Under the pieces are notes generated by a model that was not told the origin of the DNA, ran no database searches, and saw only the letters and a list, made by a program, of their open reading frames with translations. DNA of 64,000 nucleotides from Bugulina stolonifera (Eukaryota > Bryozoa > Gymnolaemata > Cheilostomatida > Bugulidae), in contig OW285196.1 of the NCBI GenBank assembly GCA_935421135.1, positions 4,879,001-4,943,000 of the forward strand, written 5' to 3'. This document shows, one piece after another, positions 266 through 57,802 of the stretch (position 1 is the first letter of the stretch; every line of letters begins with the position of its first letter). Position numbers and translations under genes: made by a program.

Positions 266-3200
266 CTGAGGAGCTGTAGCTGCAGAAGAGTCACTCCTTA
301 CACTGTTCTGAGGAGGGTATGTCTGGGTGGGTGTCATATCTCCCCCACCTCGCTCTAATCGGCCAGTCCGTGCTCCATACCCACTTCCTGTTTCATTCAT
401 CTTATTCCTCAGCTCTGAATTGGCCTCCCATGCTGGTCGTGGTCCTATAAGTTAGTAGCATAAAACTTATGAGGATAACTAAGCAGATACACACATTGAG
501 AATAAATGTTTATTAGTTATCTAGAGGCAGGTGAAATATGGTAGAATGAGGGCTAATAGCACACAACTTGCTTATTTATTAAAATAAATGGTATTGCGCA
601 TCTAAGTTAACATAAAGGGCAATTTGGGTCCCTCTTAATAACTACAATGTATGACATGACTAGGCATCATGCTGGTGACTTGTTTGCATGCCCTATCCAC
701 TGTTTTATTTCCATGTTACGATGTGGAACGTCATTCTTGTTCGACCATGAAGTTAACCTAGGTACATCTCATAGGGTGGGATCAGCCTAATCTGATGATG
801 TCCACACAACACAGCTGTAAAGCTCAGAACTTGACTCACTAAATCCCTTTTTAACGCAAATCATAGCCTTTACACATACTAACCTTGTCTACTCTCAGGA
901 CGTGGTCCCCATGCACCACCTGGTCTGGCCCACAGAGGGAGCCCAGCTAGGGCATCAGCTGAAGTATCAGGTCGTAAAGTGGACTGAGATGACTCTAAAC
1001 CTGAATAGAGTATACAACAGCAGGATAATAAACAGCATGTTAGAATTATCAGTCTAGTGTGTCAAATATATGAGACATCTATGGTGATATCAGGCCAATC
1101 AAAACGTAGCAAACGTGATCTTATCCGTACAACCATCACTAGAGAGTATATCCAACAGATAACATTTACTACCCTAGCCTCTGTTCCCATAAGTAGGGAA
1201 GTAGCTTAGAAATTCCCTGTAGTAATAAAATAGTGTATACTTAGGCTATATTTATAGTTACCTGCACTATCTAGATGCTGAGTGATAGCATATACTTGGT
1301 CTATGGTTACTTTCAGAGCCGACTGCATGTCTGTGACTTGAGAGAAAAGTTGATTGATGGAATAAATGAGTCTATTCTCCTGCCATGGTTCTGTCTGACT
1401 GTAGTCACCTGAGGAATATATGGTATATACAGTAGATCTACACCAGGGTAACATAGTGTATATACAGTAGATCTACACCAGGGTAACATAGGGTATATAC
1501 AGTAGATCTACACCAGGGTAACATAGGGTATATACAGTAGATCTACACCAGGGTAACATAGCGTATATACAGTAGATCTACACCAGGGTAACATAGGGTA
1601 TATACAGTAGATCTACACCAGGGTAACATAGGGTATATACAGTAGATCTACACCAGGGTAACATAGGGTATATACAGTAGATCTACACTAGGGTAACAAA
1701 GAGTATATACAGTAGATCTACACTAGGGTAACAAAGAGTATATACAGTAGCTATACACGTAAATAGGTAATATAGGGTATAAGCGTATACAGCTGATATA
1801 CACATAGGTAGGTAATATACCAGTGTACTATATAGTAGGCATACCTCTCATCTGACACTGAAGTCTACGCTGTTCCTGTAGAAGGTGCTGACACATCTCA
1901 GTGGTGGCGTCTAACTGCTCCTTCATCTTAGAGATCATATGAGTACCAGATCCATGAGCTGCCATCGCATCACTCGTCTCTTGATTGGCTGCTATCAGAG
2001 ATGAGGCTGTCCTATCTTTGCGTGATGGTTTCCAGTAGTCTCCAGCTAGAAGTAACAGGAACACTGTCATTGTATACACACAGACATGTGATACTTCTCC
2101 AGTAACAAGAGTATATGAGCATCACAACCATCTCATTGTATCTCTAAGAACTGTAGTGAGTGTTTAATATGAAACAAAACAGAAAAGTTGCCTCACCAGC
2201 AGGTTTTCCCGCTTCCTTCAACTTGTGAGTGTGGGGACGTCTGTTTCTGCCCGACTTAGAGTTCATTGTCTGAGGGTACCTCTGTCTAAGCTGGTAATCA
2301 TCCTCTATTGTATAGGTGTCTCTATCTGAATCCTTATTGGCTTCTTCCTCCTCCTCCACTTGCATGATACCATCACTTGGGTAACCTAGCAACAGATGGG
2401 AAATACATTGCAACCTAGCAACAGATACACCGTAACCTAGCAACACCTAAACAGTACCCACACAATACACCATAACCCAGCAACACCTAAACAGCACACA
2501 TTCTATACACTGTAACCTAGCAAAACATAAACAGTACATATAATAGTATACACAGTAACATAGCAAGGCATAGACAGTACATACATGTATATAGTATACA
2601 CAGTAACATAGCAACACCTAAACAGTACATAATTATATAGTATACACAGCAACATAGCAAGGCATAGACAGTACATACATGTATATAGTATACACAGTAA
2701 CATAGCAACACACAAACAGTACATAATTATATAGTATACACAGTAACATAGCAACACATAAATTGTACCATCGTCATCCTCGTCTATCTCTGCCTCGTCG
2801 TTGGGCGTATCCTCATCCTCTTCACTTGATTCGTCTTCAGACGACGAAGAGGAAGTATCAGAGTCTCCCCAGGTAGCCAGTGTCGTTACGTCGGCAGTCA
2901 TCTGATCCTCATCACCTAGCAACATGACAAACAATATAATCACCTAGCAACAGCACCAGAGATAGCAGCAGTATAAACAACTAACCACTTGGGAACTTTG
3001 CACAAATTTAGTAGAAATAACACTGTTATCTACATGTAGATATTTTAAAGAGATATAAACACCACAGTGCAGTGGAGAATAGATATAATAGTCTAGTTAA
3101 CATAACATTACACAGATGCGTTGTATATTCACCAAGGACCTCTGGAGCCTAACCAACATATAATAAATAAATATAACACAGACCTCTAGATTTACGAGAT

Positions 3201-6200
3201 TCCTGTCTCTTCATCTTCTGCTCCATCATCCTGCTGTAGAGCTCAGCATTTGAAGGTTCCTCAGCTAAAGGAGTTATAGTACAGATATGAAATTAACTAC
3301 ATACACACATGGAAATAGACACACACACCCATTCATATGACGTACACATGTACATAGATGCAAATACTCTTTAACTAGTACTTACTGTGTAACACTGTAG
3401 AGAACTTAACCCCGCTCTTGGGCATAGCTCTCCCTCCATTGTTAGTAGAACCTTTGCTAACTCTTTGGTCCTGAGGCTGGGCAGCTTCGGCTCCAGCTCT
3501 ATCTGTAAGCAGCTGGCCCAGGTCCTACAATACAGTGAATACCCATACAGGCTACTACAGTACAGTGAATACCCATACAGGCTACTACAGTACAGTGAAT
3601 ACCCATACAGGCTACTACAATACAGTGAATACCCATAACTACCACGATTCATAACAAAGAGATGGACCATGTCCTCTCTCTACTGCATATGCAAACCATA
3701 TTATTCAAATGACCAACATAGGGGTATTATTCAACCAATGAAAGTGTAGTGAGAGATCAACTATATTCCAGGACTACAGATTACTACAGACATTTTACTC
3801 ATGCATAGTTCAGGAGCTAACTGTACAGACAATCTCACAAGCAGATATACTATATACTATGTACATGTATATAGAACTCTAATGTTATGCATACAATCAT
3901 GTAGACTAGATTGTAAGTAACTTGAAATACAAAGGTAAGTGAGCACTACACTTACTTATACTTACAGTAAGTACTGCATAACTTACTTCAGGGGTTGACT
4001 GTGTGTACTGCTAGTGTACTATATAACTTACTTCAGGGGTTGACTGTGTGTACTGCTAGTGTACTATATAACTTACTTCAGGGGTTGACTGTGTGTACTG
4101 TTAGTGTACTACATAACTTACTTCAGGGGTTGACTGTGTGTACTGCTAGTGTATTACATAACTTACTTCAGGGGTTGACTGTGTGTACTGCTGGTGTAAT
4201 GACTTGAGTTCATTCTGAATAGAGAGCAACTTATTTCTCTCCAACATCAAAGAATGTAGCTCTTCTTTCTGCTCTTCCATTCGTTGAAGGTAAAAGGCTT
4301 CCGACTCTGCCCGGCTATGTACAACAGAGAAAATAAAATAAAACAATATGGTAATAATCAACGCCAACATACACAATCTACAGCAGAAATCCGATGAACT
4401 GAGTAGTGAAAGGAAATAGAATTGTGATGAAACTAGGAGAAGAAATGAAAAGGAATAGAACTAGGAATGAGTGGACGGTTACACAACTTTGTACTGTAAC
4501 ACAGGAGAGCAAGTGTGAACAATGAGCCCTGACAACTATAGACTGAGTCATAACAGCTCAGGGATCATGTGGGATACATGTACAGGTAGTACCACTGAAC
4601 AGTATAATGAGAGGAGCATACGCTATGCATATAGAATACATAGTAAATAGAGCACAAGTCATGTCATACCTGTCAGTAGTAGAATCAGGTAATGATGAGT
4701 CATCCCTCTCTCCTTTCATTTGCTGATTGGACAATTGATTGTTACTAGCATTTTGATTGGATAAGATAGACTGTGGGTGCCTCTGTCTACTTTGATTATA
4801 CAGATTTGAGAAGCTCTGAGCTCCAGAGGTGGTTGAGGCCTAAAACAGGTTAACATTAGTAATTAGCTGGTATACAAATGGACAATATTACTTTTTCATC
4901 ATGTTATCGTACATGTACAAATATATGCAATAACATAATATAGCAATATCACGTAATGGCAATGATTATATTACATGCACTTCTATACAAATAAACACAA
5001 TATTTATAATAAAATTGTGTTACACCGTATAACATACTCTAGACGTAGCAGAGCACTCTGACATCGTATCGTCCATAGCAGTAGCTGCCAGCTCAGCCAG
5101 ATCCTCTGGCAGCACCTCGGCAGACTCGGGCCACTGCTGTACCATACTTACTAAAGACTGTAGCCTAGCTAGCCTCTCTCTCGCTGACTGCAGTTTCCTG
5201 TCATGTGATATACACGGAGACAGATGTAAACATGGTGCATTAGCATGAATAAGAGAGGAGCATGATAAGGTGATAAGTCCATCAGTAATGTGAGTGCGTA
5301 ACAAAATATGGTAGACCGAGAACCTACTTGACTTTATCCTGTATTTCTGGGTCGTCTCCAAACTCTCCTAATGAAATGTTAGATGCTACATCACTGCTAT
5401 CTTCCATTGAGACAGACTGTGTGTTAGACGAACCTCTCCCATTATGGGACTGTGCAGCACCTCCCCTGAAGCAAACAGCAAACATAAAAACCAGCTACAA
5501 GCTACAATGTAGAAGTTACATAGTAGTGGGTCAGCATTAGAAGTCGGTCTGGTAAATCTAAATTTTAATTGAAATGGATTTTGCATCATAAACAGCCGGG
5601 CTAGAGATGGATAAACAGTTCATTGTTGGGAAAATATACAGGATATTACATCGAGTCTGAGGCATGCATCAGTGAGTTAACCAAGGCGCTACTGTAAAAT
5701 GTAATTACATAGCTAGTGTTAACTTACACCAGGTTTCCTATGAGAGACATGTCCTGAGCCGTGTCGCTCTCGATATTTGAGATAGCATTGTTGTCCTCTT
5801 CACTCCCCAGCTCGTCATTATTAGCGTTTCCGACCTCATTTCCTGCCTGGTAGTACTGAACGAGGTTTCTCAACTGGTCCAGCCTACCCCTCACCTCTTC
5901 CAGTTTCCTGTTAGACAGTCAATATACAAGTACATGATACCAACTGAGCACTAGGCGGCTATTACACCTTAGAACTACAGAGACATCTACAAGTAAGTCC
6001 ATCACTACAGAGTGAAGAAGAACTGGGCTATAGAACATTGGCTATACAGCTAGAGCTCATCGCTACAACAATATCTAATCAACGGGGTATGGAAGGGTAC
6101 AGTTCATAGGTAATATATCACGCAGTATAATCACTATTTAGGGAATCCCTAGTTTGTAATAAGTTGTCCTCTCTTTAAGACGCATGAGAGTAGATATCAG

Positions 6201-9200
6201 AATATGTCATCATTTAACAACAGCATGGTTTAATATAAAGCAAGTGACCAACTAACTGACTGCCTACCTGAGTTTGCTCTCCTGCTCCATAACATCTAGT
6301 ACTGTCTCAGCTTGGCCAGCAGTGAGGGCAGCATTCTGTGTTAGCTCCTGCTCTTCCCTTATGATACCCCCACCCAAAGTAGATACAGAGGTGGTGGTAG
6401 ATGCAGACGTATCATCATCACCATCTACTAATTCAAATAGAGTAATAGACTGTGCATCCATGGAATAACAAGTATGGTACACAGTAGGTAAGGAGACAGC
6501 TTCGGTATGTAATATGCTAAGTAAACACATGTAAACACACTCAACTTGATAATATTATACTGAGTTAGTAACGTGTAACAAAACAGAACCATCAATGCAG
6601 ATCATAAGGATGGCGAGTATTGAGTATTCAAATAATTGGTGGCAAAACAACTAAATATACATGGGCAACAGACATGGACAACAAAACACATGCAATGAAT
6701 GGAAGTTTAATAAATAAATCATCCAAAGTTTGATAACAAAGTAAATGTTTGGTGAAGTTAAACTGATAAACACAAGGTTGAAGGGAAAGCATATAGAATA
6801 TGATGATCATTAAAAAGGTACATGTACGAATAAAGAGGAGGTGAAGGTATAGAAATCCAATAAAAATAAAACCATAGCCAAGTGAACCGTGTAAAGCAGC
6901 TAAGCTATCCGACAATCATTTACCTGCATTAAGCCCATCGATTCTTTTACCTAAGCATTACCAGTAAAGGATTAATAATGTTGTAGATAGAACCACTACT
7001 AGTAATATCATACTATTCATGTAGGACATGTAAATGTGGATTCAAACTATTACCTACTACTAATGTACTCATAGACTAAGAGCCTACCATTATGCTTTCT
7101 GTATTGTCGCAGTGTCTGTAGGTCCCTCAACAGAAGCTCCATCTTCTGTTTCTTGTCTTGTAACTCATGTAGCCTGAGTCTCAGCTGTTCTCTCTCTGGG
7201 TTGGAGACGTCTGACTGGGCCTCCTCCATCTCCACTTCATCTGCTTTACTGATAGCGTCCAGCATAGCCTCCCTCTGTACTGTAGCTTGCATCTTCCTTA
7301 ACGCCTACAAAAGTGCATAAACAGAAGTAGACACTCTATTCTATTTGTATGTACATTTATCTGTAACATTGCGTGCTCAAAAGCTATAGCAATATAGACT
7401 CGTTGGACACACAACCTAGGAGGAACACTAGGCTGCTAGCCTTGTACAGTTCTTACAATCTTTGATTGCCCATGAACTTGTTTTGCTGCAAATATGCACT
7501 CTGAGCTGCACTGATGAGGTGTTAAACACTGAAACAGTACACTGTATGCAGAATGCATAGTATATTATTCACTTTAATGCATATATATATACATGTATAT
7601 ATAATGCATTCACACCTACTACTATGTACAAGTACATAGAGATAGTTCACAGGCCTGTTCGTCTACTGACTCACCTCTAACTTCTACTGATTCACCTCTA
7701 ACTTCCACTGACTCACCTCTAACTTCTACTGACTCACCTCTAACTTCTACTGACTCACCTCTAACTTCTACTGATTCACCTCTAACTTCCACTGACTCAC
7801 CTCTAACATCTACTGACTCACCTCTAACTTCTACTGATTCACCGCTAACTTCTACTGACTCACCTCTAACTTCTACTGACTCACCTCTAACATCTACTGA
7901 CTCACCTCTAATTTCCACTGACTCACCACTAACTTCTAATGACTCACCGCTAACTCCTACTGACTCACCTCTAACTTCTACTGACTCATCTCTAACTTCT
8001 ACTGACTCACCTCTAATTTCCACTGACTCACCACTAACTTCTAATGACTCACCGCTAACTTCTACTGACTCACCTCTAACTTCTACTGACGCATCTCTAA
8101 CTTCTACTGACTCACCTCTAACCCCTACTGACTCACCACTAACTCCTACTGACTCACCTCTAACTTCTACTGACTCACCTCTAACTTCTGCTGATCATCC
8201 TGCTGCTGGCTGAGTTTCTCGTTAAACACGGTCTTAAGATGGAGGAGTTTCTGTCTGAGAGCCTGAAGTTCAGCAGGTACTTCACCTTCCTCCTCCCCTT
8301 CCTCTTCAGTAGGGGGCGGTTCATCACATGTCCCGTCTACAGTCGACTCGTCTCCCTCAGTCTCAGACTCACTGCTCTCTCCTGAATCGCTCTCCTATAC
8401 ACAAAGATACAACAGAACTATCATACCTCTCATTCAGTATGTTATACGATGTTATACGTACGTATGTCAGTACATGTACATTGTATGCAATTCTCTCTCT
8501 AGTTGCAACATGGAACATCAGAAAGATTTTATTGCTCCTTAGGGTGGCTGAGAGGCAAGTTATTTTTAAAACAAATATGTAGACTGTGTCGGTCCTATCA
8601 TGACGATGCCTATGAAGAAAGGGTCAAGTCCAAATGATTCCCTACAGTTATGATCTTCACCAACTACTATTTACTAGATAGCGCAATGTTATCTGACTAA
8701 GAATACAATATAATCATAATATACATGTAAAGCAAAGTAGGGCCTATACAATGAGACTATATTCAAACCTCTTCTTTCTCATCTCTATCCTTATCCTCAT
8801 CACTTGGCATATTATTTCTCCTTCTTCCTGTTAGATTTGTATCTCCACGGCTACTGGTACCATTAACTGGTACATTGCTGGATGCGCTATCACCTCCACT
8901 AATCAGATTCATCTTAGGAGATGCAGAGGGAATTCCATTAGATGAGGCAGCTGACGTATTGACTACTTTGTGATTGTTTAGTTCCTCAGCATTATCTGTA
9001 CGTCTTTGGAGCTCCAGCAATTCAGCTTGCCTCTCGTGTAAGGATTTGAGCTGTAACACATGGAAACTAAGGTGATGTAACACACAAACATCTAAGGGAT
9101 ACCACACATTGGGAATAGAGTTCTGGAATCTGGAGTGTGTTTATCCCACAAGTATAAGGTCACACCTTTAGTACTACAATTCACACGATAATAACAATGT

Positions 9201-12200
9201 GATGCTGATGGTATGAGTATAAATATGTAATAAGTATTACATAGTACATGTATTACATAACACATAAATTACATAATGCATGTATTACATAATGCATGTA
9301 TTACATAATGTGTATTACATAATGTATGTATTACATAATACATGTATTACATAATGCATGTATATATGCAACTATAATAATATACATTATAGTGCACAAG
9401 TCATGCACATATGAGCAAAACATGTATTGTATAGCCTATATAATATACAGTGTAAAACCTTGCATGCCCATTATCTATTGAACTATGCTAAGTATCAGTA
9501 CATGGAAAGCTAATAAATGTTGGTTATAACATTGCAAGCAGTTTCCATGTTCAGATACATAAGAAGTAAAGTGTCATTTGCAGGCGGTTGACAGCTCTTG
9601 GGATGGAAAATCTCGATTGACAATGTCAGGAAATTATAAAGAAAATGTTCATTTAGAAAACACCTATTCGACTTACCATCCTTTGCTGATCTAACATCTT
9701 CTTCAGCAAGTCTCTCTGCTTCCTCAGCGCTTTAACTTCTGTCTCTTTATCTGACTGCTACCAACCAGATATACGTCATGTTATACAATGTAGAGCAGTA
9801 GTAAAGGCAACAATTAGAATTAGAACTACTCAACATTATCATGATACCTATATATGTATATCAGCATCCAGAAAAACAGTTACATTACAAATTCACCCAC
9901 AGATGATTCCATCACTTCCTTTGAGTGTATAATAAGTTATCAGAATTAAATAGCCAATTGAAGAATGTTTTTGCTGCCCATCTAATAGTAGTCATATCTT
10001 ATACTGCATGTATCTATCCACGGCATTTAAATCTGCCACAAAGATACCATCAATGTTCTATTTCAGGTGAACAAAAATAATAATGAAATTTTTAATAAAC
10101 CATTATATTCCTTTTTATGGAAATATAACAAGTTATCTCAATAGTTTGAATAACTGAGTCAGGTGTTAGCTGTTAGTACTAGTGAACATAAATAAATGAA
10201 TTACCGAGACAAAAGGGATAGGGACAGTGATAGTTTCTTTTAACAAATGAACAGATCAACTGTATGCATACATGTAGGCCTATTAATAAACCCTTATGGA
10301 TGCTGCTTTTAACTGTGGGCAGGCAACCAATATAGGCCAAGCTGAATAATATATGAGTAAGCACATTCACATGGACCTACAGTATGGCAGACATGTTGTT
10401 TATATGGTCGCCATAGAAACATGCCAGATATCAACCATGAACACAAAGTGTGTTATATTCAGTGCAACCACCAGGCTAGTATATTACAAAGTGAATAGAT
10501 GGATTACCCACGCTCACCTGCCCCCAAACACAGCAACATAAAACACTGCAGAAAGCAATAAACATACAAACGAGAGTGAAATCGGCCTCCATTGAACTCG
10601 GAGATGTGTTGTCATTCACTTCAATAGTGAAAGAGGGAGAGAGAAGAAGAAATGGAGATCAGTGCAGGAACACATAAGATGTATAAATATAACATGTGGA
10701 ATAGTGATCCACTCCTAGCAGGCAATGAGGGGGCATGGAAGCATGAGCCGCAAGAAGTAAACCGACACCATGACACCCTTCCCATCATGCATAGCTAGCT
10801 GTTCCCCTCCCAGCCTGCCTAGCTGCCTATGCTGCCTTGTGAATGTGCTTACCTCATCATCAACGGACTGTCCGACAGATACTTCGAATCCATCTGACGA
10901 CGACGCAACGTCCTCAACAAACTCTACTCCCATGAGCTCGTCAAATGGTTGGTTTGCCATATTCATTATAGGTAAGTTAGTTTGTTTTAACCTCGGAGTC
11001 GTTGGATTGGAGCGACTCTTTGATATTGAATGGTGAGTGAAGCTACCATCAACTTCATCTTTCATGAATAAATCAACATTGGATTGAACGGCCTTGGTCG
11101 GCTGGCGACCGATAGAGTTAGAAGGTGGCATTACGCCAACTATCTGATCACGTGTAAGCGTGTCAGATAGAGTGGATATCGTACCACTCCCTACTACTGC
11201 CAACGTAGTACTCGGATTACTAGCACTGCCGCTAGACGACGTGGGAGTAGAGTTTGGTAGAGAGGACATGTCAGAATGGAATCCCATATGAGACTCAATG
11301 TGTGGTCTGTTGTATGCATTCCATGTTAGCTCCTGGTAAAACCACCTCACTATGTATGTATATACCTACTACATGTCTTACTACTGCATGGGTTTTTTTT
11401 GGGGGGGTTGAAGCAAGGATTTATAGTTATAGGTTGCTAAGTGGTAACGCGTTCTGTCCACTGTGCTAGGCAATCATGTGCCGTAGAGGCCTTGGGTTAA
11501 AATCCCAATCAGGGATGGGCATTTTCACAGATGTAAAATTGAGTCCCCGACTGCTCAACTGACTGCATAAACTAACATCACATAAATACCGTATGTATTG
11601 CATACAAGTGTGTACTGCATGTATTATCTAATTACCACGATTTTATACATGACTGTATTATATGCCATATATGTACAGTACATAGCACATAAGGATGTGT
11701 AGAAAAGCGAAGGGCTGTGAACAGAATAAACATTCCTCACCATGCAGATTTTATATAACAAGTTTTAAATGTATATATCTCTTTGACGGTGAAGTTAGAC
11801 CAGATTTTCTGCCACACCAACAGTTTAAATCATGCCTAACAGTCTATACATACTTACAATGGGAGATATTAGACATTCACACATACAAAGTATAGTTCTC
11901 TCCACTTACCGTTGTACATTCTGAGACTTCGCTAGCTCCGTCAACATCAAATGAAACCTCAGAGTCATATCCTGTTGCCGCGTCTGCACCATTGGATGCT
12001 TCACCATTAGTCAATACATAGTTATTGGGCAGCCCTGCAGAGCTTGCATGGTTCAACTCTCTTTGGTTGTTCAACATCTCCCCACCTAGAGATACATGTA
12101 CAGTGACAGCGAATGGATATTACTAACATATCAACACGTACATATACATGTAGCCTATTCTACACAGCAGAGCACATTAAATATTAGACTTGGGTGTTGA

Positions 12201-14960: not shown

Positions 14961-15048
14961 CCTAAATGGCTAAACCAAATTCTGCAAGTGAAGCCAGGTG
15001 ACAAATCAATAATAATTAATAATGATCACTAACATCATCATGACAATT

Positions 15049-15595
15049 AATGGTAAAATTTTGAATGAACTTTTTGTTTTGCAACTCAGTTGTTATTAAT
15101 TTTCTAATTTACGTTGCAGCTAAAGGCTTCAAACGGGCTGTGCTAGGACTCCATTGCACTGACCAACTTATGGGTTAGAAAGTTCGATTGGTTTAGAATT
15201 AGTTTCTGCAAATAACAGAATATAAATAAATATTGATTGACTAGAGGGACTCATTGATGACTAAGAGCTGAGAGGAAGAATAGAATTGGTTGATTTGATA
15301 AATTGTTATAATGCTATGATAATTATCATAGCATTATAAAAATTTATCAAATCAACCAATTCTATTCTTCCTCTCAGCTCTCAGCCATCAATGAGTCCCT
15401 CTACAATTATGTAGTTTGTAATCGCAATCAATATTCTGTTATTTGCAGAAACTAAACCAATCGAACTTTCTAACCCATAAGTTGGTTAGTGCAATGGAGC
15501 TCTAGCACAGCCCCTTTAAAGCATTTAGCTGCAATACAAATTAGAAAATAACAACTGAGTTGCAAAACAAAAAGTTCATTCAAAACTTTACCATT
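15049..15595. mobile_element. 547-bp foldback element with 273-bp arms
   Basis: The left arm starts aatggtaaaattttgaatg and the right arm ends cattcaaaactttaccatt, its near-perfect reverse complement. The centre is gataattatc at about 15322, with almost no loop. Arm identity looks above 90 percent, with a few indels such as the extra bases near 15400. There is no coding capacity. A foldback/MITE insertion fits best; transcription would give a long hairpin RNA. Confidence 0.85.
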
Positions 15596-16786
15596 CATAC
15601 CGACTAGTGCAGGATCGGATGTTGATCATCCGCCATGATTGTTTATATTGGCGTAATGATATACTGTTGCTATTATTTTGAATTAGCTGCTATTTTAAAA
15701 CTACATCAATACAACCGCGTTTCACAAAATTATGCAACCCAAGTAATATTTCTTTTAATTCTTTTGCTTAAAATCTCAAATACTGTCAACAGTATGCAAT
15801 TAATAAGTTACAGCTTATTTCACGATGACCACTTTTGTTGCGAGCGTGTATATCAAACCGAGTGCAATTAATAGTTTGTCAACCTACACGTACTTCGGAG
15901 TTGTCTACCCACTTTGTTAGAACTACCCACGCGTTTTTTTCCAAAACTCCAATTTGGAACCATGGTGTTATTCAGGCCTACAACAGGTACATGTACATGC
16001 TATAGAAGGGAACTCTATGATAGAGGTTTATTTGGGGCTGCTTGTCAACAGCATCCATCTATGGACTGCTGCATGTACCCTAAAGTTTGAATGTGGATAA
16101 TATGTTATGTAACTTTAGGGTGCTCTGGATACTACATGATCAATATCTTATTCAAGACAAATCATACAATATTTATTTATGTGTGGTGTACTTTTCTTTA
16201 ATTTTACAACCAAGGAGCAGGGAGATATTTTTAGAATTTCACAGTTTATTGTTTGTTAGCCATTATATCAATAACCAACTCAAGTTAATTCTCAAAATTA
16301 GTGTTTTCCAACTATTATAATGTTACTACATGGTACATGTATGTTTAAAAATAATATGATGCTAAAATAATATAGAGAATATTATGTATTTTAACAGTAT
16401 AAAATAGATACAACCATGCAAGGTAAATGTACACGTTAGATATTATACATTCCAAAAAGTTGCTTTAATTATTGATACAACATAATTATTATCCTTTCTT
16501 TATTCCTTTACCTTCAGCAGACAACACATTTGAACTATATGGTTGGCTAAATAAGCTTCACAAAAAACTGCAAATAAAACTCCCATGTGGGTGATAAAAA
16601 GGGAAGGAAGAAAGAAACTAGAAAGGATAATATTGCATAGAAGAGAATAATACACAATGTATACTCTTGTACATGTATGAAAGAATAAAAACAGTATAAT
16701 ACATAGGCATGTAGGAGTTGTGTGCTCTCTATACCTGTAATACAATCATGGATTTGTCATAGAAAGTGTGTTGTAGGTCTGTCAGT

Positions 16787-19700
16787 TCATTGCCTTGAGC
16801 AGTCTATCATTACTTTGATACCAGTTCCACCCATGGCAGCTTTGTAGGCATCTAGACTCTTTTCCAGTGTGAATCGGTGTGTGATGAGAGGTTTGACATC
16901 GATACGCCCTGTGGCTATCATGTCCAAGGCATTCTGGTACCTAGGTAATTATACATACAATAACACATGACTTGATGTAATTCAATACAATATAAAATCA
17001 TGGAGTGCTTAAACTGTGTGATGAACTAGGAAGTAGGGTTCTCAAGAAAAATGATTGGAGTAAGTTAAAATCAAGCAAAGTCTTTAGTCCTAACATAAAT
17101 GACCTACTGTGTTCCAGGACATCAGCAATCTAGTGGAATCATGCAATTTGATGATAAATCATGTAATATATCTTATAGACTAATATATTACTAATATAGT
17201 AGTTGTGACATGAGTCATCCAACACTATTGATGGACACACTGATCATCTTCCAGAGACACAAACAACTTACGAATTACAGTATCTGAACACTCCTCTGAT
17301 ATCGACCTCCCTAACGGCGGCGTTAACAATGGGTATGCTGACTATGGGTGGTCCCAGGCCAACTAGACATACCACCCCGCCTGACTTTGTAGCCTAAAAC
17401 AAACATGCATAGTTATGAATTTTTAAGTTGTAAAAGGTGTTGTAACGAAGACAGTTCCCTGGACATCGGCTTCTACTAGTATATACCCCGGATATTTGTA
17501 CAACAAACATTAGTTCCATACATGAGCTAGTCACTCCACGACATGGTTTAGTTGAAGTTGTTCTGCCTCCACATACATTTGAAAATCAAAAATGAGACAA
17601 CTCCAAATGAATGACACTGGTATGGGCAGTGTTTTTGCTGCCACATAATACGAGGTGCTATATTAAATGATACTAGCAACCCATACAACAGTGACACCTA
17701 GAGTCAAGTGCTACCTGCATAGATGTGACAGCTAGAGTCAAGTGCTACCTACATAGATGTGACATCTATAGTCAAGTGCTACCTGTATAGATGTGACACA
17801 TGGAGTCAAGTGCTACCTACTGCACATAGTGATGTGACACCTAGAGTCAAGTGCTACCTGCATAGATGTGACAGCTAGAGTCAAGTGCTACCTACATAGA
17901 TGTGACATCTATAGTCAAGTGCTACCTGTATAGATGTGACACATGGAGTCAAGTGCTACCTACTGCACATAGTGATGTGACACCTAGAGTCAAGTGCTAC
18001 CTGCATAGATGTGACAGCTAGAGTCAAGTGCTACCTACATAGATGTGACAGCTAGAGTCAAGTGCTACCTACATAGATGGCTAGCTGTATAGCACTCTCA
18101 GCCCCACTACATTCTATACTGATGTCAGGCATGTGTCCTCCAAAGGTGCTCTTCACTCTGTTAGCCACTTCCTGTGCGTCCTTAGTATCGACCAATAGCA
18201 CGTGATCAGCTCCCATCTTCTTAGCAAAATCCAGTCTTGATTGTGAGATATCTGGAGAAAAAACAGTTCTGTGGCTTATTATAATGAATTATTCGACCAT
18301 AGACAAACCAGAGATGGGTAACCCTAGAGATTTCTGTAATAAATACCACATGTAGGTACACAAAACATGTCTTCCTCCATATATGCACCATATGTGCTAT
18401 TACATCCATGTGTTATACCAATCTAAGGTCAAACTTGCAGATGTATGTTTCCAGCACTCATCTATACACAACTGGGTAGAAGCACTAAGCACCCAGAAAG
18501 CAGTACAGCTGTATAGATCAATAATAAAAATAAACAGAAGGACAGCAAAGAATACCAGCAGTTACTAAATAAATACACAATAGTGGACCAATAAGAAATG
18601 ATACAAGTAGGTCAGACTGACCTGTAACCACAATCTCACTAGCACCATATGCCCTGGCACTCATCATGGAGAGAAGGCCAATAGGTCCAGCTCCAGCCAC
18701 CAACACTCTCTTGCCGATAGTAACCCCAGCTCTAGTACAGGCATACACAGCCACTGAGAGGGGCTCGAGTAACGCCCCCTCCTCCATAGACACATTCTCC
18801 GGTAACCTGAACAAAATATAACTTTAGCTCATAGTTTGGCATGCAAGTCCGAAAAAACTAGGTCAATATATGTTATGAAGGGCATAATAGCAGTGTTGTT
18901 ACCTGCCAACTAAAATAGTTGAAGAGTATGTAAATACATATATGTATAAATAATACAAAACAAATAAATATATAAATAAAACATTTGAGGATTCACCAAG
19001 GAGTGGTGAAAAACTGAGAACCCAGAAGAGTGTGGGGTAGACAACTCCTGATCAAACCAGACTCAACTAGTGATTGCTCTATACAGATAATAGACATGTA
19101 AAGTACTATAGAGAGTACAGGCTACTCGATGTGATGTGGTCAGTGAAACTTGAGTCCTACATTATTCATTAAACAGGGTTGATGATTGAGAACCAATGCG
19201 AATAGAACTAACTTGAAACAGAAGTCGGAAGCAAGAGTCGTGAACCTGGTCAATGTGCCATGCACTGGTGGAGTGGCATAGAAGATGACATCAGGACACA
19301 GGTTGTATTTACCTCCTTTACAGTGCTCGCACCTTCTGCATGGCACACCTGGCTCCATTGCCACTCTGTCACCTGCACAGACATGTATAGCAAGTGCTTG
19401 ATACTCGGCAAACATTCATTTATATGTCAAAATTGAACATTTGGTAAGTGGGACAACGAGCCAAAACAGCTCGCTCCAACAACAGATATAAATATCATTC
19501 ATTGGCCACCAAAAATAGTTATACATGCACTCGCACATTCGGTTACAAAATGTATTTCAATACCCTGTACTCGTTGTATCTCATCATAATGTACATGTAT
19601 GACTACAGCCACATGCTAATGCCATATATATACATTCACTTGCACAAAAATATGTACAAATACTTGACACTTATCTCTCAATCAGTCTTATGTGTATGCA

Positions 19701-32507: not shown

Positions 32508-32540
<33 letters not shown>

Positions 32541-40700: not shown

Positions 40701-43091
40701 AGTAGACGTAGCCGGACAGTCGCTGTGAGTGCAGTACACTAGTGCTATTTATGCTGCCTGTCATCACTTGGATATAGTGTATGGTAGTAAAATGTGATGC
40801 GTTATATTGAATTACCGCTCGGCAGCCAATCGTAAACCATCTCAGACCTTAGTAAATCAGACCTGAGGAAATCCGCTTAGTTTTGAACTCATACTATCAG
40901 TTATTCATGCTTCGGTGCATTGTTGGACTTGTTGTGTTCTCACAGCCTGCAAGAGTATAGCTAATATTTAATATTCCACTTTACCAATAACTGGAACACT
41001 GTCAAGTCGATTCTGCCATCAGAGCTAGCGATGTTCTGCATTGAAACGCTGGCATGCACTAAATGATGCTAATTCTTCAACATCAGTCATTTTGAATCTT
41101 AATATTCTGAGATCCAAGAAGTAGAAGAGAAGCAGAGGCAGCATACACTTGACTGGGGGTCTACTATAATAGCTGTACAGCTAGAGTATGAATCACTGAA
41201 CCACACTACCATTACCATTATAACCCAAGTTTTCATAGACTAGTATCCACGGGTATGAGGTGTTCGCTACGTCAAACAATCAGCACTTACCTTTCCTCAG
41301 CATTGGCATTAGCTTCACTGACATTACAATCATGATGTTTATCTACCATATTGCCTATTCTTTGACTAGTCTGTGTAGAGATTGTGACATACCAATAGTA
41401 GAAACAGTGGTCCTCTAGCAAACCATCTAGTCAAATGTTAGTCACAAACAAGACTGGCCAACAGAGAACGGGCATTGTTGGACTATGACGTTGTTCAACA
41501 CTTCACTATAACAATCATTTTTGTACTATACAATCATGTATTATTTAATAACATTTTCTATATTGTTGAATTATTAGTAGTTACTTGGTAACAAATTGTT
41601 CTGCATTATCTCTTCCATTAAAGTACATGTAGGTGTTGTAGTAGACTATAATGGTTTCATCCTCCTTTGTCTGACTTTATAGACTCCATCCAATCCATCT
41701 AATAGCGAGTGAACCACACGTAAAAAGGCCAAATTAGAAAACAGTTTCTATTTCTCTGTTATTTCTAGTCGTTCTGTCATGCAAGCTGCTGTGTATCTTC
41801 GATGTTATGTGAAGCAGTACATAGTTAGTGTGGGAGGGGGCAATAGATGCAACCGTATTAAGCAAGTGACCATAATTCAAAGTTGTCCTCTCTCAATTTA
41901 TTTACCATTTTATCCCTGGGTGTGTGGCACATTTTTGTAAAATTATTAATCGCTCTACTGGCAAATGCAATCACAGTTTTAACCAGGGTTTAGCTAAAGT
42001 AGATGTTAGGATTTCTTAAGATTTATTACGACATTTACCTATAGGAAATGACTCTGACAACAGTTAGTCACTTGTTTGGGCAATTTGGAGTTGTTTACCT
42101 CCAACACTGCTATCATAGATTTATATTAAATCTATGACTGCAATACAGCCTAAGACAAATATATACAAATTGATATACAAATCGAGTAATTTTTGTAGTC
42201 TTAATTTTTTGGTGCAGAGTAAAGATAAAACAACTCCAAATTTGGGAAGTACCTTGCTCCAAGTGAGCAGTCCAATCCATTATTGATTGGGATACTTTTT
42301 ATTATTATAATTACAACCATATGCTACTGAGTTGCATCTCTATTTCACATGTATTTATACAATAAATTATACATACAGCTGTCTAATATTCTGTATTTGC
42401 AGCTCTATATTCCAGTGCATGTGTGTACTAGGCTACTGTGTAGTACCACTAGCTGGAGCCCTTACTCTCTGTAAGGTCATACTATTGGTGGACGATGAGA
42501 GCACTGGACTGTTTGTAGTTAGATCTATTATAGTACTGCTAGCCTTCGCCTGGTGTGTCTTTGGTGAGTTGGTTACACCCCCTCTCCCACTCCTTTTCTC
42601 CCAACTTATAGTAGGAATTTAGGCTATGGCATATTAGCTAAGGTATTGCATTAAATGTAAATGTAGATTGCCATAAAAATCGGAAGTTGTGTATTCCGAT
42701 ATTTGTGCGTTGAGAAGTACATGCATGTATTTGCTCTGCTGTGATGGGCACAGTATACAATTCTATTGTGTCCATGGTGTTAGGAGTTATGTTCCCCTCT
42801 TGCACTTGAACCCAGTTAATATGTTGAACTAATAATACAGTATATAAATTATAATATATGTATTGTACTAATTATTGTTGAAATATTAGTGCCCTTGGTG
42901 CAAGTACACAGTTGTAGGAGTTGTCCTCTCTCTTGATGCAGTGTAACCTGTTTAGTATGTCATGTCTATTTATAGCATCGACAGCATTCCTAGTAGAGAG
43001 TCAGCCGTTGAACAGGAAAGTGTTGGTTCTCTACCCCATTGGACTCTTCTACTTTGTCATCAGCTGGCTAGTCATCTCTCATAATGGATAG
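37774..43091 (+). CDS. YIPF6: YIPF6 (Yip1 domain family member 6), complete, 5 exons
   Basis: Multi-pass Golgi membrane protein of the Yip1 family, which binds Rab GTPases and other Yip proteins in ER-Golgi traffic. Exons: 37774-37917, 38273-38351, 38650-38827, 42403-42563, 42976-43091, giving 225 residues (human 236) with consistent phases. A polar cytosolic N-terminus (about 1-80) ends in STLDEPVSTTI|KRDLKMIG, matching human STLNESVRNTIMRDLKAVG. Five hydrophobic segments follow, beginning DLWGPLILCMFMAIML and including FLIYWVGALIITINTILLGG, CMCVLGYCVVPLAGALTLC, SIIVLLAFAWCVF and VLVLYPIGLFYFVISWLVI. The last matches the human FYFVISW ending. Intron 3 is 3.6 kb and contains diverged internal duplications. 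The gene is convergent with the secreted gene on its right; only 620 bases separate the stops. Confidence 0.94.
38828..42402. other. Large YIPF6 intron 3 with diverged direct repeats
   Basis: Two segments about 1.5 kb apart (39540-39900 and 41050-41380) share a diverged order of motifs: taatagctgt, ataaccca, ctagtatcca/ttagtatcca, accatattacct/accatattgcct. Between them, 40300-40740 is less AT-rich and open in a minus frame of 81 codons. I recognise no family. This may be an old element or a decayed duplicated gene. Confidence 0.45.
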
Positions 43092-43711: not shown

Positions 43712-46700
43712 TTACTTTCCCATGTTATACAAAGATCTACAATAATATAGTAGCAGTTAGTCTTATATACATGCTATGATAGTACTGCTATTACAGCTGC
43801 ACACCTACGTGATTGTCTAAGTAATCCCATTGCAGTTGCATACCTACCTGATTGTCTTAATAATGCTGTTACAATTGCACACCTACCTGATTGTCCTAGC
43901 AATGCTGTTACAATTGCACACCTACCTGATTGTCTTAGCAATGCTGTTACAGTTGCACACATTATACATCGCAGCTCTTATAGTGCCATCATCAAGTGCA
44001 GCAAAGAATAGTCTTAGGCTAGATTTATTCACACTGATGTTTCTAACCCTCTGAAGCAATGCGGTGGCTTTGGTAGCGTGTCCACCTACATGTATAATGT
44101 AATATACACTTAGAACTTAGTCTAATAGATGAAATGCAAACAGTACATTATAATATAATACATGTATATGCCATGGCAGGCTGGAACAGCAGAAGGTTTC
44201 ATTGGAAGCAATCTTTGAGACCCAATTAACTTATTATGTTCCACATTTGCGACTCACGAGCAAATGTTTAGCAGCCAATCATTGGAGAAGTAGTCGCTCA
44301 TCAAGTAATTCAGGACAAACTGATAAGCGGCCATGTTTGAGCGATTCACTAGCAACGTATTCATTGGCTAATAAAAACTTGGAAGAATTTTCACCTTCAC
44401 TGTATAACATGAGTGTTACAACAACTACTAGGCCTATTCAACAGTACTTTGACACGAGAGAAGTGGGTTAGAACATTCATTATCTTATCATTGCAAAGTC
44501 TTTGTTCTGGACTATAGTGCGCATCTAAACGTACATACATGTACATGTAACATGTAGTAAGAAATTACTTTCCAGTGAATTGGAGAGGGTATAACTCCAG
44601 ATAGGTCTATAATTAATGTGCTGTAATATGCATGTGCAATTCTATTGTATCTTGTAGTATTCTGTATAAACTCGATTGCAAGTCGGAAGTTGATAAATTT
44701 CTATAAGCTCACCATGCTTTCCGTTAGCGATATCATAATGTGCAGTACCCTTGGTGGCTCTTCTCACTAAAAATAGTAACCAAATACATAATTGAGCAAA
44801 AATGTGATTTCATGTTGTACAGTACAGCATTTATGTACAAGTCATGAATATATGCTATGCAGTGCAAATAAAACAGGGCGTGTCAGTCATGGGCAGCAGG
44901 CACTGATAAGCTACCGATGCTAGTTAGAAGTCGTCCTCTCTCAATAGATAAAGAAACCAAAATTGAGAGAGGACAACTTCTTATTGTGGTCAATAGCCTA
45001 CGATTGCCCATAATTTCTGTATTATACATGTAGGTGTTTTTGCGACCTAAATTTCAGACCCAAGCTGATTTGCAAAAATAGTTTTTGGCACACATCCGTC
45101 ACAGAGTCGCGAACACACCGGCCTGAGCCAGAAGCAAAATCCTCATCTTCGCGCAAAGTCAGCCAGGTGTGTCGATGAGCTAGAGATAATTTCGTCTGGC
45201 CAAGCAAAATCCTAGGCCTAATAGCCCTTCTGGCCTTGTGACTTTTATTTGCGACCCGTATATACATGTATATACATGTACAAGGAACATCAATTCCTAT
45301 GTTAGGTAGACCTTGACCTACCTCTAAGCTTATAACCTGAGAACCCAGCAGAGTTGAATTTGGGGCGAGGAATGTTTAGTGGTCTACCAGCTACTTTATC
45401 ATCCATGAGTTTCTAGAGATTGTATAGAAAAGCATGAAACAAACGATCGCCGTATGGCACAGAGGTGTTTTGTATATGCTGGTTCATAACTGCATGTCCC
45501 CTAACTGATTTAGGCAACAGAATTTAAGGTTACAAGACAGTTATTTACACAAATTCACACATACCATTCCTTCCCAGCTGTCCAGAATGTTGATGACATC
45601 ATTCACAGAGTCATCTGAGGCTTGTCTCTTTCCAAACCCTCCACTCGAGAACTTAGGATTTGGAATATCAGTAAGAGTGCCGTCTACCTCTTTCTGCATT
45701 ATTGCCTATTAATATACGTAACACATCCCTAGGTAATTGAACTAGTAATATTATAACATGCAGACATCATGCACTCTTTACCATGTGCTAGACTTGGGTA
45801 GAGCACACTCCTAAAATATCCATGTTCTTAGCCCCAGTTCTACAAACATCAACAGATTTATCTTGGACTGCTTGATTCTCAAGCTATTTCAGATTCTTTG
45901 ATCGAACTAAAGACAACAGTTAGCTGCCATTACGCAATACATTACTCGATAGAAGTACTTATTATAGTCTCTATAAAAAAACCTTCAAAACACAAGAAAT
46001 GCATCACAGGATGAAATAAATACTTCATGATATACGCACCATCCCTTCAGGTGAGTCTAATATATTCATTACTTCTGTATGAAGTTTATCCACTGTACCA
46101 GAGGTAGCTCTTTTACCAACGGGGCCAACTGGAAGTTGTCCTGGACTGCTAGCCTACAAATGAACAGGTACTATTCAGACACTGCTGTTACTGTATTACT
46201 TTGATACCGAAACTTGTCCACTAAATGAAAATATTTTTTTGCAAAGTCCGAAAGTACATGTATATAGAATAGGTACATACATGACTACAATTATGCAACA
46301 CTGTCAATATCAAATTGCTGTTTCTTTTAATGATTGTGAACTTATGCCAATGGTTCAAGTATGAAATAACTGGCCCTAGAACTAGTATCTATGAACCTGG
46401 AATTGCTGACAAGCGTTTGTGGCAGCTAGCTTTGGAGCCATTCCTTTAATGATGTTAGCTATCCCTTCGTCCATCATGTTGTGTTCAACCATGTAGATGA
46501 AGTCGTTGTTAGGTGGTGACCTGTATAGTACGTCTGTTATCAGTTTAACCACCTGAACAACACCAGTATTAATGAATTATGCTATTGATTCTAGTCTATC
46601 CTTCTGCTGAAAAAGAGCCACTAGTTTGAAGTTATTGGCACTTTGATTTGTAATTTAATCAAGCTCAGTTAGTTAGGATACAGACTTTGAATATTTGATT

Positions 46701-48799: not shown

Positions 48800-48895
48800 T
48801 GTAGGTTATTAGGCAGCATGCAAGTACACTAATAGACAGCATGCAAGTACACTAATATGCAGCATGCAAGTACACTAATAGGCAGCATACAACTT
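48800..48895. repeat. 23-bp tandem repeat, 4 units
   Basis: Four copies of gcagcatgcaagtacactaat with small changes (taggcagc, tagacagc, tatgcagc). Confidence 0.85.
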
Positions 48896-53056: not shown

Positions 53057-56000
53057 CTATCTACTGTTAGTATAGTCAGCATGGATCTTGTCTAGTATAG
53101 GTATAATAGCGTCAAATCTGGGTCGTTTAGTTGAGTCTTCATTCATACAGATGTTAATCAACTTGGTGAGGTGAGAGGAGGTGCCCGGCGGTATGGTAAC
53201 TCTCAGATCTTCCAGCGCCACCTAGTGGTAAAATTAGCAATCAATCAGTTTCAAAGACACACACATAAATGAACTATTCGGTAGTTGAAAATATAAGTTA
53301 AAATTAATTATAAAATAATAACTGCAATAGAGCAGGGCGGTACTTTTGCTGGATTATATGTATATTTTAATCTAACCCTTTTTATATAATGAGTTTTTTA
53401 AAGCAATGAAAAAATTAGAAAGGTGTGGAAACCTGTGAAACTATCACTCGGAAACAACATTTTTGGTTCCGATTCTGTTTGGAGAAATAGAAGACAATGC
53501 TATAGCAAGATATATATTGCTCGGTGGAAAGTCGAGCCAATAGGCTAACAATCACTTGTACTCACTTGTCATACCGAACTCTGTCTTTACACAGTCTCAT
53601 GTGACTAGTTTACTTATCACATAATATACTGGTAGTGTATAGAATAGCCTGTGGTCTTACCTTCATGCCCACTTCCATGGGCGAGAGGTGTGAGAAAGGA
53701 ACCTCTCTGGTAGTCAACTCCCATAAAAGGATTGAGAAGCTCCACATGTCTGCTGCTCTCACATTGATATCTTCAGGCTTTCTCTGCAACGCTGTAGACA
53801 TCAACATATATATATTATATAGGTAATACATAATGCATATTTTCTACATGTGATATTTATGTATGACAGGAAAAGGGCCTCTCTTGCTGATTGGTCGACT
53901 ATAAGACAGCCTCACTATGACAATACAGAGAGATCTTATACCATCACAATGAATATCATGTTTCACTAGGAGTTGCCCTATCTCTCCTCAAGTAGCAATC
54001 ACCTGATATTGAGATTTCATTCCATACATGTACGTTATGAACACACCAACAAGTGCACATAGAATACAACATTCAGATAGATGAAATGATTACAATGTAC
54101 ATATGAGAGTAATACAGGGAAATACAACTCACCTTCAGGTGACATCCACGCTGGAGAATATTCTTTGTGCTTCTCATGGAACGAGAATTTATAATCGGCC
54201 ATATTTATCCTGGCTGTGAAATCATTGTCTATCTGTAATATAATTATATATAACATGTTAGTGATGTATCCAATAAACTATCTTAGTTCCCATCAAACTG
54301 ACCAATGAGTTTACATTTAGATACTACATGTGTGTATCATTAGTTTTCAAAGCATAACACACATTGTATATGTTATTGTATACGAGTACTTACCAATACC
54401 TACTTATCGTATACTACTAGCTTCCGCATTGTATAGGTACAATATACTTACCAGTATATGTTTACTGTTTATTGCTAAGTTTGGTATAACTGGTTCCATG
54501 GAGTGTAGAAATTCCATACCCTTAGCTATGTGTACAGCAAACTTTAACGCCTGATGAACATCCACTACTATGTCTGCAAGCAAAGCAGAGATAATACTAT
54601 AATATACACTACAAGTAACAGAGATAATACTATAATATACACTACAAGTAACAGAGATAATACTATAATATACACTACAAGTAACAGAGATAATACTACA
54701 ATATACACTACAAGTAACAGAGATAATACTATAATATACACTACAAGTAACAGAGATAATACTATAATATACACTACAAGTAGTAACAGAGATAATACCA
54801 TAATATACACTACAAGTAACAGAGATAATACTATAATATACACTACAAGTAACAGAGATAATACTATAATATACACTACAAGTAACAGAGATAATACTAT
54901 AATATACACTACAAGTAACAGAGATAATACTACAATATACACTACAAGTAACAGAGATAATACCATAATATACACTACAAGTAACAGAGATAATACTATA
55001 ATATACACTACAAGTAACAGAGATAATACTACAATATACACTACAAGTAACAGAGATAATACCATAATATACACTACAAGTAACAGAGATAATACTATAA
55101 TATACACTACAAGTAACAGAGATAATACTATAATATACACTACAAGTAACAGAGATAATACTATAGTATACACTACAAGTAACAGAGATAATACTATAAT
55201 ATACACTACAAGTAACAGAGATAATACTATAATATACACTACAAGTAACAGAGATAATACTATAATATACACTACAAGTAACAGAGATAATACTATAATA
55301 TACACTACAAGTAACAGAGATAATACTATAATATACACTACAAGTAACAGAGATAATGCTATAATATACACTACAAGTAGTAACAGAGATAATACTATAA
55401 TATACACTACAAGTAACAGAGATAATACTATAATATACACTACAAGTAACAGAGATAATGCTATAATATACACTACAAGTAGTAACAGAGATAATACTAT
55501 AACATACACTACAAGTAACAGAGATAATACTATAATATACACTACAAGTAACAGAGATAATACTATAATATACACTACAAGTAACAGAGATAATACTATA
55601 ATATACACTACAAGTAACAGAGATAATACTATAATATACACTACAAGTAACAGAGATAATACTACAATATACACTACAAGTAGTAACAGAGATAATACTA
55701 TAATATACACTACAAGTCTTGGTGGCTAAGTAGTTAGCACTTGCTGTCACAACACAGATTTTCCCGCTAATGATTACAGAAGTTGAGCCCAAAGAAGATT
55801 TCTCTGTACAATTTAACCAAATCGTGCAGCTAACATCTGTCCAATGAACTCCACTTAGCACATAGTCACGATAAGATGACAAAGACTACTATCAGTAGAC
55901 ACACCCACCTGTCTGTGCTCCGTGCAAAACATGGTAGAGAGAGCCTAAGTTCATGTACTGACTGATCATGACGAGATGCGGGGGTTGGGTGCTAGCCGCC

Positions 56001-57802
56001 AGTACTGCTAGTATATTTGGGTGATTGAATATCCTCAGTCTAGTGTACTCTTCACTGAAATCCCTGGCCATCCTCATTGTGCATTGCTTCACATTAAGTA
56101 TCTTAGCTACTATGTCATTTCCTTGCCATATACCTCTCCAGATCTACATGTATAATATATACACAATGTACATTAGTATTGTTTGTGTGGAGGTGAGTGT
56201 CTCATACAGGGAATATACTACATGCACATTCTACATGGAGAGAGAATTATTCGACTATAGCATTACACTGTCTTTCAGGTGAACTACAGAGTGATTGAAA
56301 CCACTCCACATATTAATGCCAGGAGTTGCCCGCTATATACTCATAGCCTCAGTCCCAACACTAGTACCAATAGCCTGAGAGCCTCAATACACTCACATCT
56401 CCACTGTGATTGTTGCTGATTCTGCCTTGCAGACTTAGCTGTTTCATGTCTAGCCCAAAGTTCCTAGATAAAGTAGCTGTAGCTCGGGTCTTGAATGTTG
56501 TGCTCCAACCTCTATCATCATAGGGAATCTTGGTTATATCTTGACCCATTTCATGAGCTTTCTCTAATGGTAACATACAATGTATGGTAAAACAGGTGTG
56601 GAACAACAGTTGAAAGTAACCCCAATAATAATCTATCCAATAGGAGCAGAATGAGGGACCTGCCCGAGGGTAGAATACAGACAGATAGACAGATAGTGGC
56701 TTGTCGTAATGTTGAATAAGGATATTTTCGATATTAATATCTGACAGCACTGTACTTGATGTTGATGCCCCAACTAAAGCATATACCTAGAACCTACGGT
56801 GAAGCTGACAAAATATCACAATATGCGATTGCACTGCATATTTGAATTGTCAGCCCTTTCTCAATCAAGAAAAGGGAATACAACTCCATAACTGTATGGC
56901 TTATGTACACACACACCTCTGAGGTATGTAGCCAGACTGTGTTTAGCTTTATCTAATGGAGTCTCATCAGATCTGTTGGAGATGGAGACGAGAGCTCCAT
57001 TTCTAATCAAGTCCTCGGCAATAGCCTCATAGCTCCAAAAGCAGGCATAGTGAAGAGGGGTGTTACCGTGTTCATTCACAGCATTCACACTCACCTTCTT
57101 TTGTAACAACTGTGGGGAAAGAAGTAAAGACAATGATAACAAATTGTACATGTATTACTGCTTGGCGTAAACAGAGCCAACACTGATACTAATTCAATGC
57201 TTATAGCAAATACATGTACATGGAAGACAAGACATTGTAATAGCTTGGAGCACTTTTGGATATCGTATTTGCAGTCTACAACTGTACAACAAGCAGCATG
57301 ACTACTGTCATATCCACCACATGGGTGGGCATATACACTACACGACATGGGTAGGCATATACACTACACTATGTGGGTGGGCATATACACTACACTATGT
57401 GGGTGGGCATATACACTACACTATGTGGGTGGACACACATACCAGAAGTACGACATCTCGGTGGCCTCTGCTAGCTGCTACATGCAGTGGAGTGTCATCT
57501 CCCATGTTAGTAGCTGTAGCCCGAGCACCCCTGCTAATCAGCATGTCCACGATATTCACATGTCCCTCAAAGCAGGCCCAGTGCAGCAGAGTCTGCTGAT
57601 GATCATCTCTATAATAACAACGTCATCTTAGAGAGTCGCAGAGAAACGATTGGTAATTATACACATAGTTAAATACACTGAACTTCTCTGAGAGCAGGTA
57701 GAATGTTACTCACGTCTCATTCAGATCATTTTCAGTGTTATCCAACCATATTCTGACGTTTAGAGAATTTCCATCACGTACTTGTGAGAAAATTCCATCC
57801 AT
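53057..57802 (-). CDS. ILK: Integrin-linked kinase (ILK), complete, 9 exons
   Basis: Scaffold pseudokinase at integrin adhesions, partner of PINCH and parvin (IPP complex). Exons in order: 57802-57714, 57608-57443, 57109-56917, 56563-56397, 56143-55909, 54573-54452, 54232-54133, 53791-53661, 53221-53057, giving 455 residues (human 452) with consistent phases. The start [20 protein letters not shown] matches human MDDIFTQCREGN. Ankyrin repeats fill about residues 30-160 ([37 protein letters not shown]). A phosphoinositide-type linker and pseudokinase domain follow. The domain keeps Lys in VAKIL, has [10 protein letters not shown] where active kinases have HRD, and MADYKFSF instead of DFG; AWMSPE replaces APE. 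The C-terminus [16 protein letters not shown] matches the human end. Intron 5 is mostly a 33-bp array, and the donor of exon 2 abuts a second array. Confidence 0.97.
54581..55717. repeat. 33-bp minisatellite, about 34 units, ILK intron 5, acceptor-like
   Basis: About 1.14 kb of nearly identical units, agagataatactataatat plus acactacaagtaac. Five or so units carry an extra agt, making 36 bp. On the coding strand the unit includes TTATCTCTGTTACTTGTAG, resembling the true acceptor TTATCTCTGCTTTGCTTGCAG that abuts exon 6 at 54573. Unit lengths of 33 and 36 leave long frames open on both strands; these are artefacts. Confidence 0.93.
57310..57438. repeat. 24-bp tandem repeat abutting the donor of ILK exon 2
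   Basis: About five copies of catatacactacactatgtg plus ggtgggc. The last copy merges into the donor region CTG|GTATGTGTGTCCACCC at 57442/57443. Confidence 0.85.

Follow-up and report, generated by a model that had tools for sequence, protein, structure and literature searches.

Tandem repeats lying across exon-intron borders have been described as 'mirages' in amphioxus, in Adh3, troponin C, the globins BflGb6 and BflGb9 and PGBD5, and have been suggested to yield new introns (PMC3087553; PMC3902484). Copy-number differences between haplotypes and reverse transcription PCR results are reported for them, and their possible generality among cephalochordates is discussed (PMC3087553). In human genes within segmental duplications, variable minisatellites at exon-intron boundaries are reported together with the formation of novel introns (PMC2812944). 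Here we describe arrays of this type in a bryozoan, in a 64-kb stretch of chromosome 10 of the 235-Mb Bugulina stolonifera assembly (C10:4879001-4943000, hereafter the window), where the repeat unit contains the splice site at borders of PCM1, SORD and an unnamed predicted gene. We consider it probable that the arrays belong to the mirage type of border-spanning minisatellite, which grow blind to the border and are retained since the copy next to the exon still splices in frame. They look like a side product that a repeat-rich genome tolerates and not like the work of special intron-making machinery. A literature search limited to open-licence papers yielded no report of border-spanning repeats that we recognised as coming from a bryozoan, as far as the accessible text of those papers goes.

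As in the amphioxus mirages, the unit spans a donor or an acceptor border, splice signals recur in many copies and the exon-adjacent copy is taken as the true site; units of 21-48 bases in the bryozoan arrays compare with 10-160 bases in amphioxus. The bryozoan host and the occurrence of several arrays within 64 kb are different, as is the fact that the arrays described here are known from sequence alone. The human border repeats are also minisatellites at exon-intron borders, with units of about 30 bases on average; their number varies between recent paralogs, half are in coding exons and 27 intron modifications have RNA support (PMC2812944), whereas the bryozoan arrays were read from the genome. 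In intron gain by tandem duplication (the Rogers model; potato RdRp, PMC4974935) a border-crossing duplication likewise gives extra splice sites. In contrast to the AGGT duplication invoked for such gain, only three of the six window borders (8179, 43926 and 2385) have AGGT exactly at the splice point. At 18073 it falls immediately inside the intron, and the units at 4167 and 3524 are without it. In unit length, copy number and GTA/TAC-rich composition the arrays resemble ordinary intronic minisatellites, from which some window arrays differ in that they extend over the splice site and as many as 35 bases of exon.

The initial annotation of the window had proposed that at seven borders (donors 4167, 8179, 18073 and 43926; acceptors 2385, 3524 and 54573) the repeat unit contains the splice site and, in several cases, the last exon bases. 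Arrays were called by Tandem Repeats Finder (TRF) and exon borders by a self-trained exon-chain gene finder, and the two sets are independent. The splice site was found inside the unit at six of the borders, at 5′ and 3′ borders alike, but not at 54573, where the array stops short of the acceptor (Table 1). Exon bases belong to the unit at the four donors and, by eye, at 2385, where the unit reads through TTGCTAG/GTTAC (the slash marks the splice point) while TRF puts the array start 17 bases from the border; the unit at 3524 includes none. The exonic part thus ranges from 0 to 35 bases, which fits a duplicated segment placed at random over the border. Exon 43926-44085 is a prediction only (exon score 13.7), and the exon downstream of it was not found. 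The arrays at 8179, 18073 and 4167 occupy part of their introns only, and many copies at 8179 carry a GTGAGT donor. A two-copy repeat, TGTTGCTAGGTGAT, has one copy across the acceptor of exon 2769-2915 and the other upstream in the intron. Two contacts outside the window, both in the random block L016, depend on predicted exons: one exon ends at donor 13811 within a 34-bp array with 12 exon bases included, and an array overlaps donor 6090 by 2 bases.

Table 1. Tandem repeats at or near exon borders in the window (window coordinates).
Feature	Coordinates	Strand	Repeat	Relation to border	Called by
PCM1 donor array	3971..4198	-	45-bp unit x5.1	holds donor of exon 4167-4314 plus the final 32 exon bases	TRF, exon calls
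PCM1 donor array	7662..8194	-	21-bp unit x25	holds donor of exon 8179-8394 plus the final 16 exon bases	
SORD donor array	17691..18079	-	34-bp unit x11, within a 143-bp higher-order repeat	holds donor of exon 18073-18251 plus 7 bases of the exon	
Donor array, unnamed gene	43786..43960	-	39-bp unit x4.5	holds donor of predicted exon 43926-44085 plus 35 bases of the exon	
PCM1 acceptor array	3525..3637	-	30-bp unit x3.8	unit ends exactly at AG before exon 3386-3524	
PCM1 intron, repeat end to end	2386..2768	-	pieces of 22-48 bp, mostly ~46		TRF, gene finder, sequence
PCM1 two-copy repeat TGTTGCTAGGTGAT	2911..2952	-	spacing 28 bases; plus-strand positions 2913, 2941		14-mer recurrence; not in TRF list
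ILK array	54586..55717	-	33-bp unit x34	12 bases from acceptor of exon 54452-54573	
PCM1 array	1418..1758	-	35-bp unit x9.7	acceptor of exon 1262-1408 lies outside the unit, 9 bases away	
ILK array	57322..57432	-	26-bp unit x4.3	10 bases from donor of exon 57443-57608	

The exon-touching copy had also been held to be the only one that keeps the reading frame. Each donor-like (score at least 1.5) or acceptor-like site was checked for phase and stops in seven arrays (4167, 8179, 18073, 2385, 3524, 54573 and 1408), and the claim is borne out in six of them. Donors fit the frame at one site of five at 4167, one of 45 at 8179 and one of 20 at 18073, each time the exon-touching site; among acceptors the counts are one of seven at 3524, one of 66 at 54573 and one of 13 at 1408. 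At 2385, two of nine acceptors fit, the second being open and in frame at 2436, 51 bases upstream. With this one alternative acceptor excepted, it is right that at the testable borders the frame-keeping copy lies at the exon and the decoys in the intron.

Protein homology spans the junction at five of the six confirmed borders, the exception being the predicted border at 43926. Over 1188 aligned residues the predicted PCM1 is a 62% match to Watersipora PCM1, without a gap at junctions 8179/7304, 4167/3524, 2769/2385 and 1845/1408; a two-residue gap begins four residues past 1408. The sequences QQKLE/ALRKMQ at 8179 and EDDD/GYPSDGI at the phase 1 junction 2769/2385 are both matched in Watersipora. 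The ILK junctions are ungapped against two ILK relatives except for a one-residue gap slightly before 54573, and human sorbitol dehydrogenase continues without a gap through SORD junction 18073/17393. Since the matches run across the junctions, the splice points are well supported without RNA, 43926 excepted. The 21-bp array at 8179 lies in an open frame on either strand, one of 190 and one of 202 amino acids, and the gene finder took it as a coding exon. An array-coded protein from the 190-residue frame was rejected, as the phases, the Watersipora junction and an in-frame stop in the exon's own frame all speak against it. Gene finders can take such arrays for coding exons, and automatic annotation of the Bugulina stolonifera genome may contain false exons of this kind.

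Training of the gene finder used the window together with seven random 20-kb blocks. Ten blocks had been fetched, and L008, L012 and L010 were dropped by judgement before any count, the first two as mostly 228-bp satellite and L010 for its 40.2% GC with other repeats. The satellite fills L008 1-20000 and L012 10518-20000 (contigs C2 and C7). In the window the gene finder yielded a 455-residue ILK, part of SORD and 23 exons of PCM1, which extends beyond the window edge; the PCM1 count follows a hand correction in which exon 8179-8394 replaces two predicted exons. Further hand edits added exon 43926-44085, deleted the predicted exons at 40338-41371 and removed a false SORD-PCM1 fusion intron. 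The top match of PCM1 is from the bryozoan Watersipora subatra (1125 bits, against 255 for the runner-up), and a quick ILK tree of 40 rows places the window gene among lophotrochozoans, apart from Branchiostoma. A further predicted gene in the window is one that we take, from its sequence, to be glucosamine-6-phosphate deaminase-like. In the eight blocks used (window plus seven, 204 kb), TRF returned 91 rows with a period of at least 9 and a score of at least 50. In predicted introns 13.6% of the bases lie in arrays with a period of at least 9, as do 13.1% of the 204 kb as a whole; the median intron is 439 bases long (97 introns). The placement tests used 69 of the 91 rows (score at least 60, units below 90% AT), merged beforehand, and the unit-motif tests used 61 units of 10-100 bases with less than 85% AT; borders of exons scoring below 8 were excluded. 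The array at 43786 was left out of the intronic-placement counts, since the other end of its intron was not located, and kept in the non-coding count. The array filling intron 2386-2768 was scored as non-touching (TRF ends 17 and 14 bases from the borders).

That arrays meet exon borders far more often than chance predicts, as initially claimed, does not hold as a general statement, since the seven random blocks show no significant border excess. When each array was moved within its own intron, with an overhang of at most 45 bases and contact taken as at most 5 bases, 6 of 27 arrays touched a border where 5.5 were expected (6.7 with the overhang uncapped). These divide into 4 of 9 in the window (2.6 expected, P = 0.21) and 2 of 18 outside (2.9 expected). 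Recurrence of 14-mers within 400 bases was found at 4 of 98 donor borders and 2 of 108 acceptor borders, no more often than in mid-intron. Along introns this recurrence is flat up to the border, mostly at 4-8% (2-10% by offset); within 15 bases of exon it is no higher than about 1%, and there is near none in exons, where arrays are almost absent. A search of the random blocks for hidden exons at array edges gave none with a good score. One likely missed exon, at 10168-10278 of block L024, lies away from any array.

Several results weigh against growth that is blind to borders. In the window, 8 of 9 intronic arrays come to within 15 bases of a border where 3.3 are expected (P = 0.0006), compared with 2 of 18 outside (3.7 expected). 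With an overhang of no more than 10 bases, contacts at 0 bases number 6 against 2.2 expected (P = 0.012), and donors alone, over all blocks, give 5 against 1.1 (P = 0.003; 3 against 0.5 in the window, P = 0.01, and 2 against 0.6 outside, P = 0.10). If arrays are placed anywhere in non-coding DNA, 5 of 14 touch a border in the window (0.67 expected) and 2 of 48 outside (1.5 expected), with 6 donor contacts among 62 arrays where 1.1 are expected. Because the pattern was noticed in the window, the excess there is post hoc and needs the outside sample, in which it was not repeated; that sample is small and its exons are ab initio predictions, which is itself a point on the same side.

These excesses are what would be expected if duplication were biased to splice donors, with the sequence of the 5′ splice site or a co-transcriptional structure seeding the arrays. 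We regard such a bias as unlikely, though the repeat units themselves supply arguments for it. Sense donor motifs (score at least 4) are found in 10 of 25 intronic units, where ordinary intron segments predict 2.8 and shuffled units 4.8 (P = 0.01), and antisense donor motifs in 1 of 25. Among units that do not touch a donor the motif is present in 5 of 18, compared with 1.8 expected from ordinary intron segments (P = 0.035), but dinucleotide shuffles predict 2.75 (P = 0.1), leaving no clear excess. Considering all 61 units, 16 contain a donor of score at least 5, where random non-coding segments predict 5.3 and dinucleotide shuffles 9.7 (P = 0.03); outside the window the figures are 11 of 47 against 7.0 by shuffling (P = 0.08), and P ranges there from 0.06 to 0.45 by threshold. 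Acceptor motifs (score 4) show no excess in the units, at 14 of 61 against 13.5. Genome-wide, tandem triplets of GGTAAGT number 3357 against 160 for the reversed word (42,403 and 32,732 as single words), and those of GGTGAGT are 4.5 times as many as for its reverse (1870 against 416); triplet counts are hits, many per array, and not independent arrays. The reversed-word control is unfair, as words containing GTA are generally prone to form arrays: AGTAGTG, a poor donor with the base make-up of GGTAAGT, gives 5454 triplets against 469 reversed, although trinucleotide repeats, of which one can be seen among its matches, perhaps raise this count. As AGTAGTG behaves alike, the GGTAAGT contrast is largely due to GTA-rich repeat units, and donor-word enrichment was dropped as proof of splice-directed duplication. 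The commonest 6-mers in the units include GTATAT, TGTATA and TACTGT, and the units are rich in GTA/TAC words. Donor-like words thus mostly follow unit composition, and the 18 intronic arrays outside the window, without a significant excess even for donors at the strictest overhang, speak further against a bias to donors.

Border-blind growth followed by tolerance, the reading that we prefer, would proceed as follows. Tandem duplications of about 15-50 bases would arise all over non-coding DNA, indifferent to exon borders. One that straddles a border would be tolerated when its extra copies fall within the intron, leaving splice signal and frame intact in the exon-proximal copy, a step for which the basis is the frame test and protein homology and not RNA. 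Slippage or unequal exchange could then extend the array into the intron, while arrays in exons would be purged. Intronic arrays touch donors and acceptors in a ratio of 5 to 1 (7 to 3 within 15 bases), perhaps since the exon-proximal donor is transcribed first, and upstream AGs, which would compete for the branch point, may be more harmful than a downstream GT; both suggestions concern small numbers. The arrays could instead be functional, with the copy number of decoys tuning splicing or yielding alternative exon ends, which we judge improbable. The second acceptor at 2385 would suit such a role, as would the many donors inside the 8179 array that match the used one in strength (score 8.8), and the human border repeats are reported to cause alternative splicing (PMC2812944). 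Internal sites nevertheless all break the frame at the other six tested arrays, and Watersipora PCM1, two ILK relatives and human SORD carry no repeat-coded insert within about 20 residues on either side of the junctions.

Intron 2386-2768 offers the best case for introns newly born from tandem repeats. It begins with GTACAATTTATG, continues with about eight unit copies and closes with TGTTGCTAG/GTTAC; both the donor GTAC and the acceptor TTGCTAG/GTTAC are unit-like. Array-driven intron gain has a precedent in the model proposed for amphioxus globins (PMC3087553), in novel introns formed from border repeats in human duplicated genes (PMC2812944) and in a tandem-duplication intron reported in potato (PMC4974935). 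Still, an older intron overrun by its growing acceptor array would look identical, and the arrays at 8179, 18073 and 4167 fill their introns only partly, so we hold this origin to be the least probable of those considered. It is very improbable, in our estimation, that expanding minisatellites give this bryozoan a lasting supply of spare splice sites and that intron 2386-2768, with donor, body and acceptor all made of unit copies, has been caught soon after its birth.

The border arrays in bryozoan PCM1 and SORD make it testable whether such repeats arise by chance and are then tolerated, or whether new splice sites and introns really come from them, since Bugulina stolonifera has a chromosome-level genome (GCA_935421135.1), an alternate haplotype (GCA_935421085.1) and RNA-seq (ERR10123683). 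The bias of donors over acceptors is a concrete prediction for such work and not a result.

Three further arrays in the window end close to a border (Table 1). At 54573 the acceptor in use, CTTGCAG, is not in the 33-bp unit; the last copy of the array is possibly a degenerate one, TTGCTTGCAG compared with TTACTTGTAG agreeing at 8 of 10 positions.

Other repeats were seen besides the border arrays. Nested inverted repeats of 98, 81, 52 and 25 bases with 91-100% complementarity occupy 15046-15598 of the window, the 81-base arms abutting, which looks like a fold-back element or one of the miniature inverted-repeat transposable element type. The word TTGTCCTCTCTC is present 8 times with at most one mismatch (0.21 expected), at 3669, 6164, 41883, 42921, 44931, 44965, 47418 and 59761, and two of the copies form part of an inverted pair at 44907-45000; this suggests the ends of a dispersed small element. 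An AGC repeat at 32452-32539 lies within the predicted exon 32413-32541 (minus strand) and encodes alanine runs. Elsewhere on chromosome 10, region L001 (C10:15866535-15869557) contains, at about 1300-1750, a degenerate 14-bp array of CAGGTAAGTATATA and variants, in which many units place an acceptor-like TACAG beside a donor-like GTAAGT. In the first 16.8 Mb of contig C1, 11 of 18 GGTGAGT array clusters among the matches listed fall in the first 1.4 Mb, a figure that treats nine places resembling one another at 14.17-14.38 Mb as a single cluster (11 of 26 when these are counted separately), as if minisatellites crowded toward the end of that contig.

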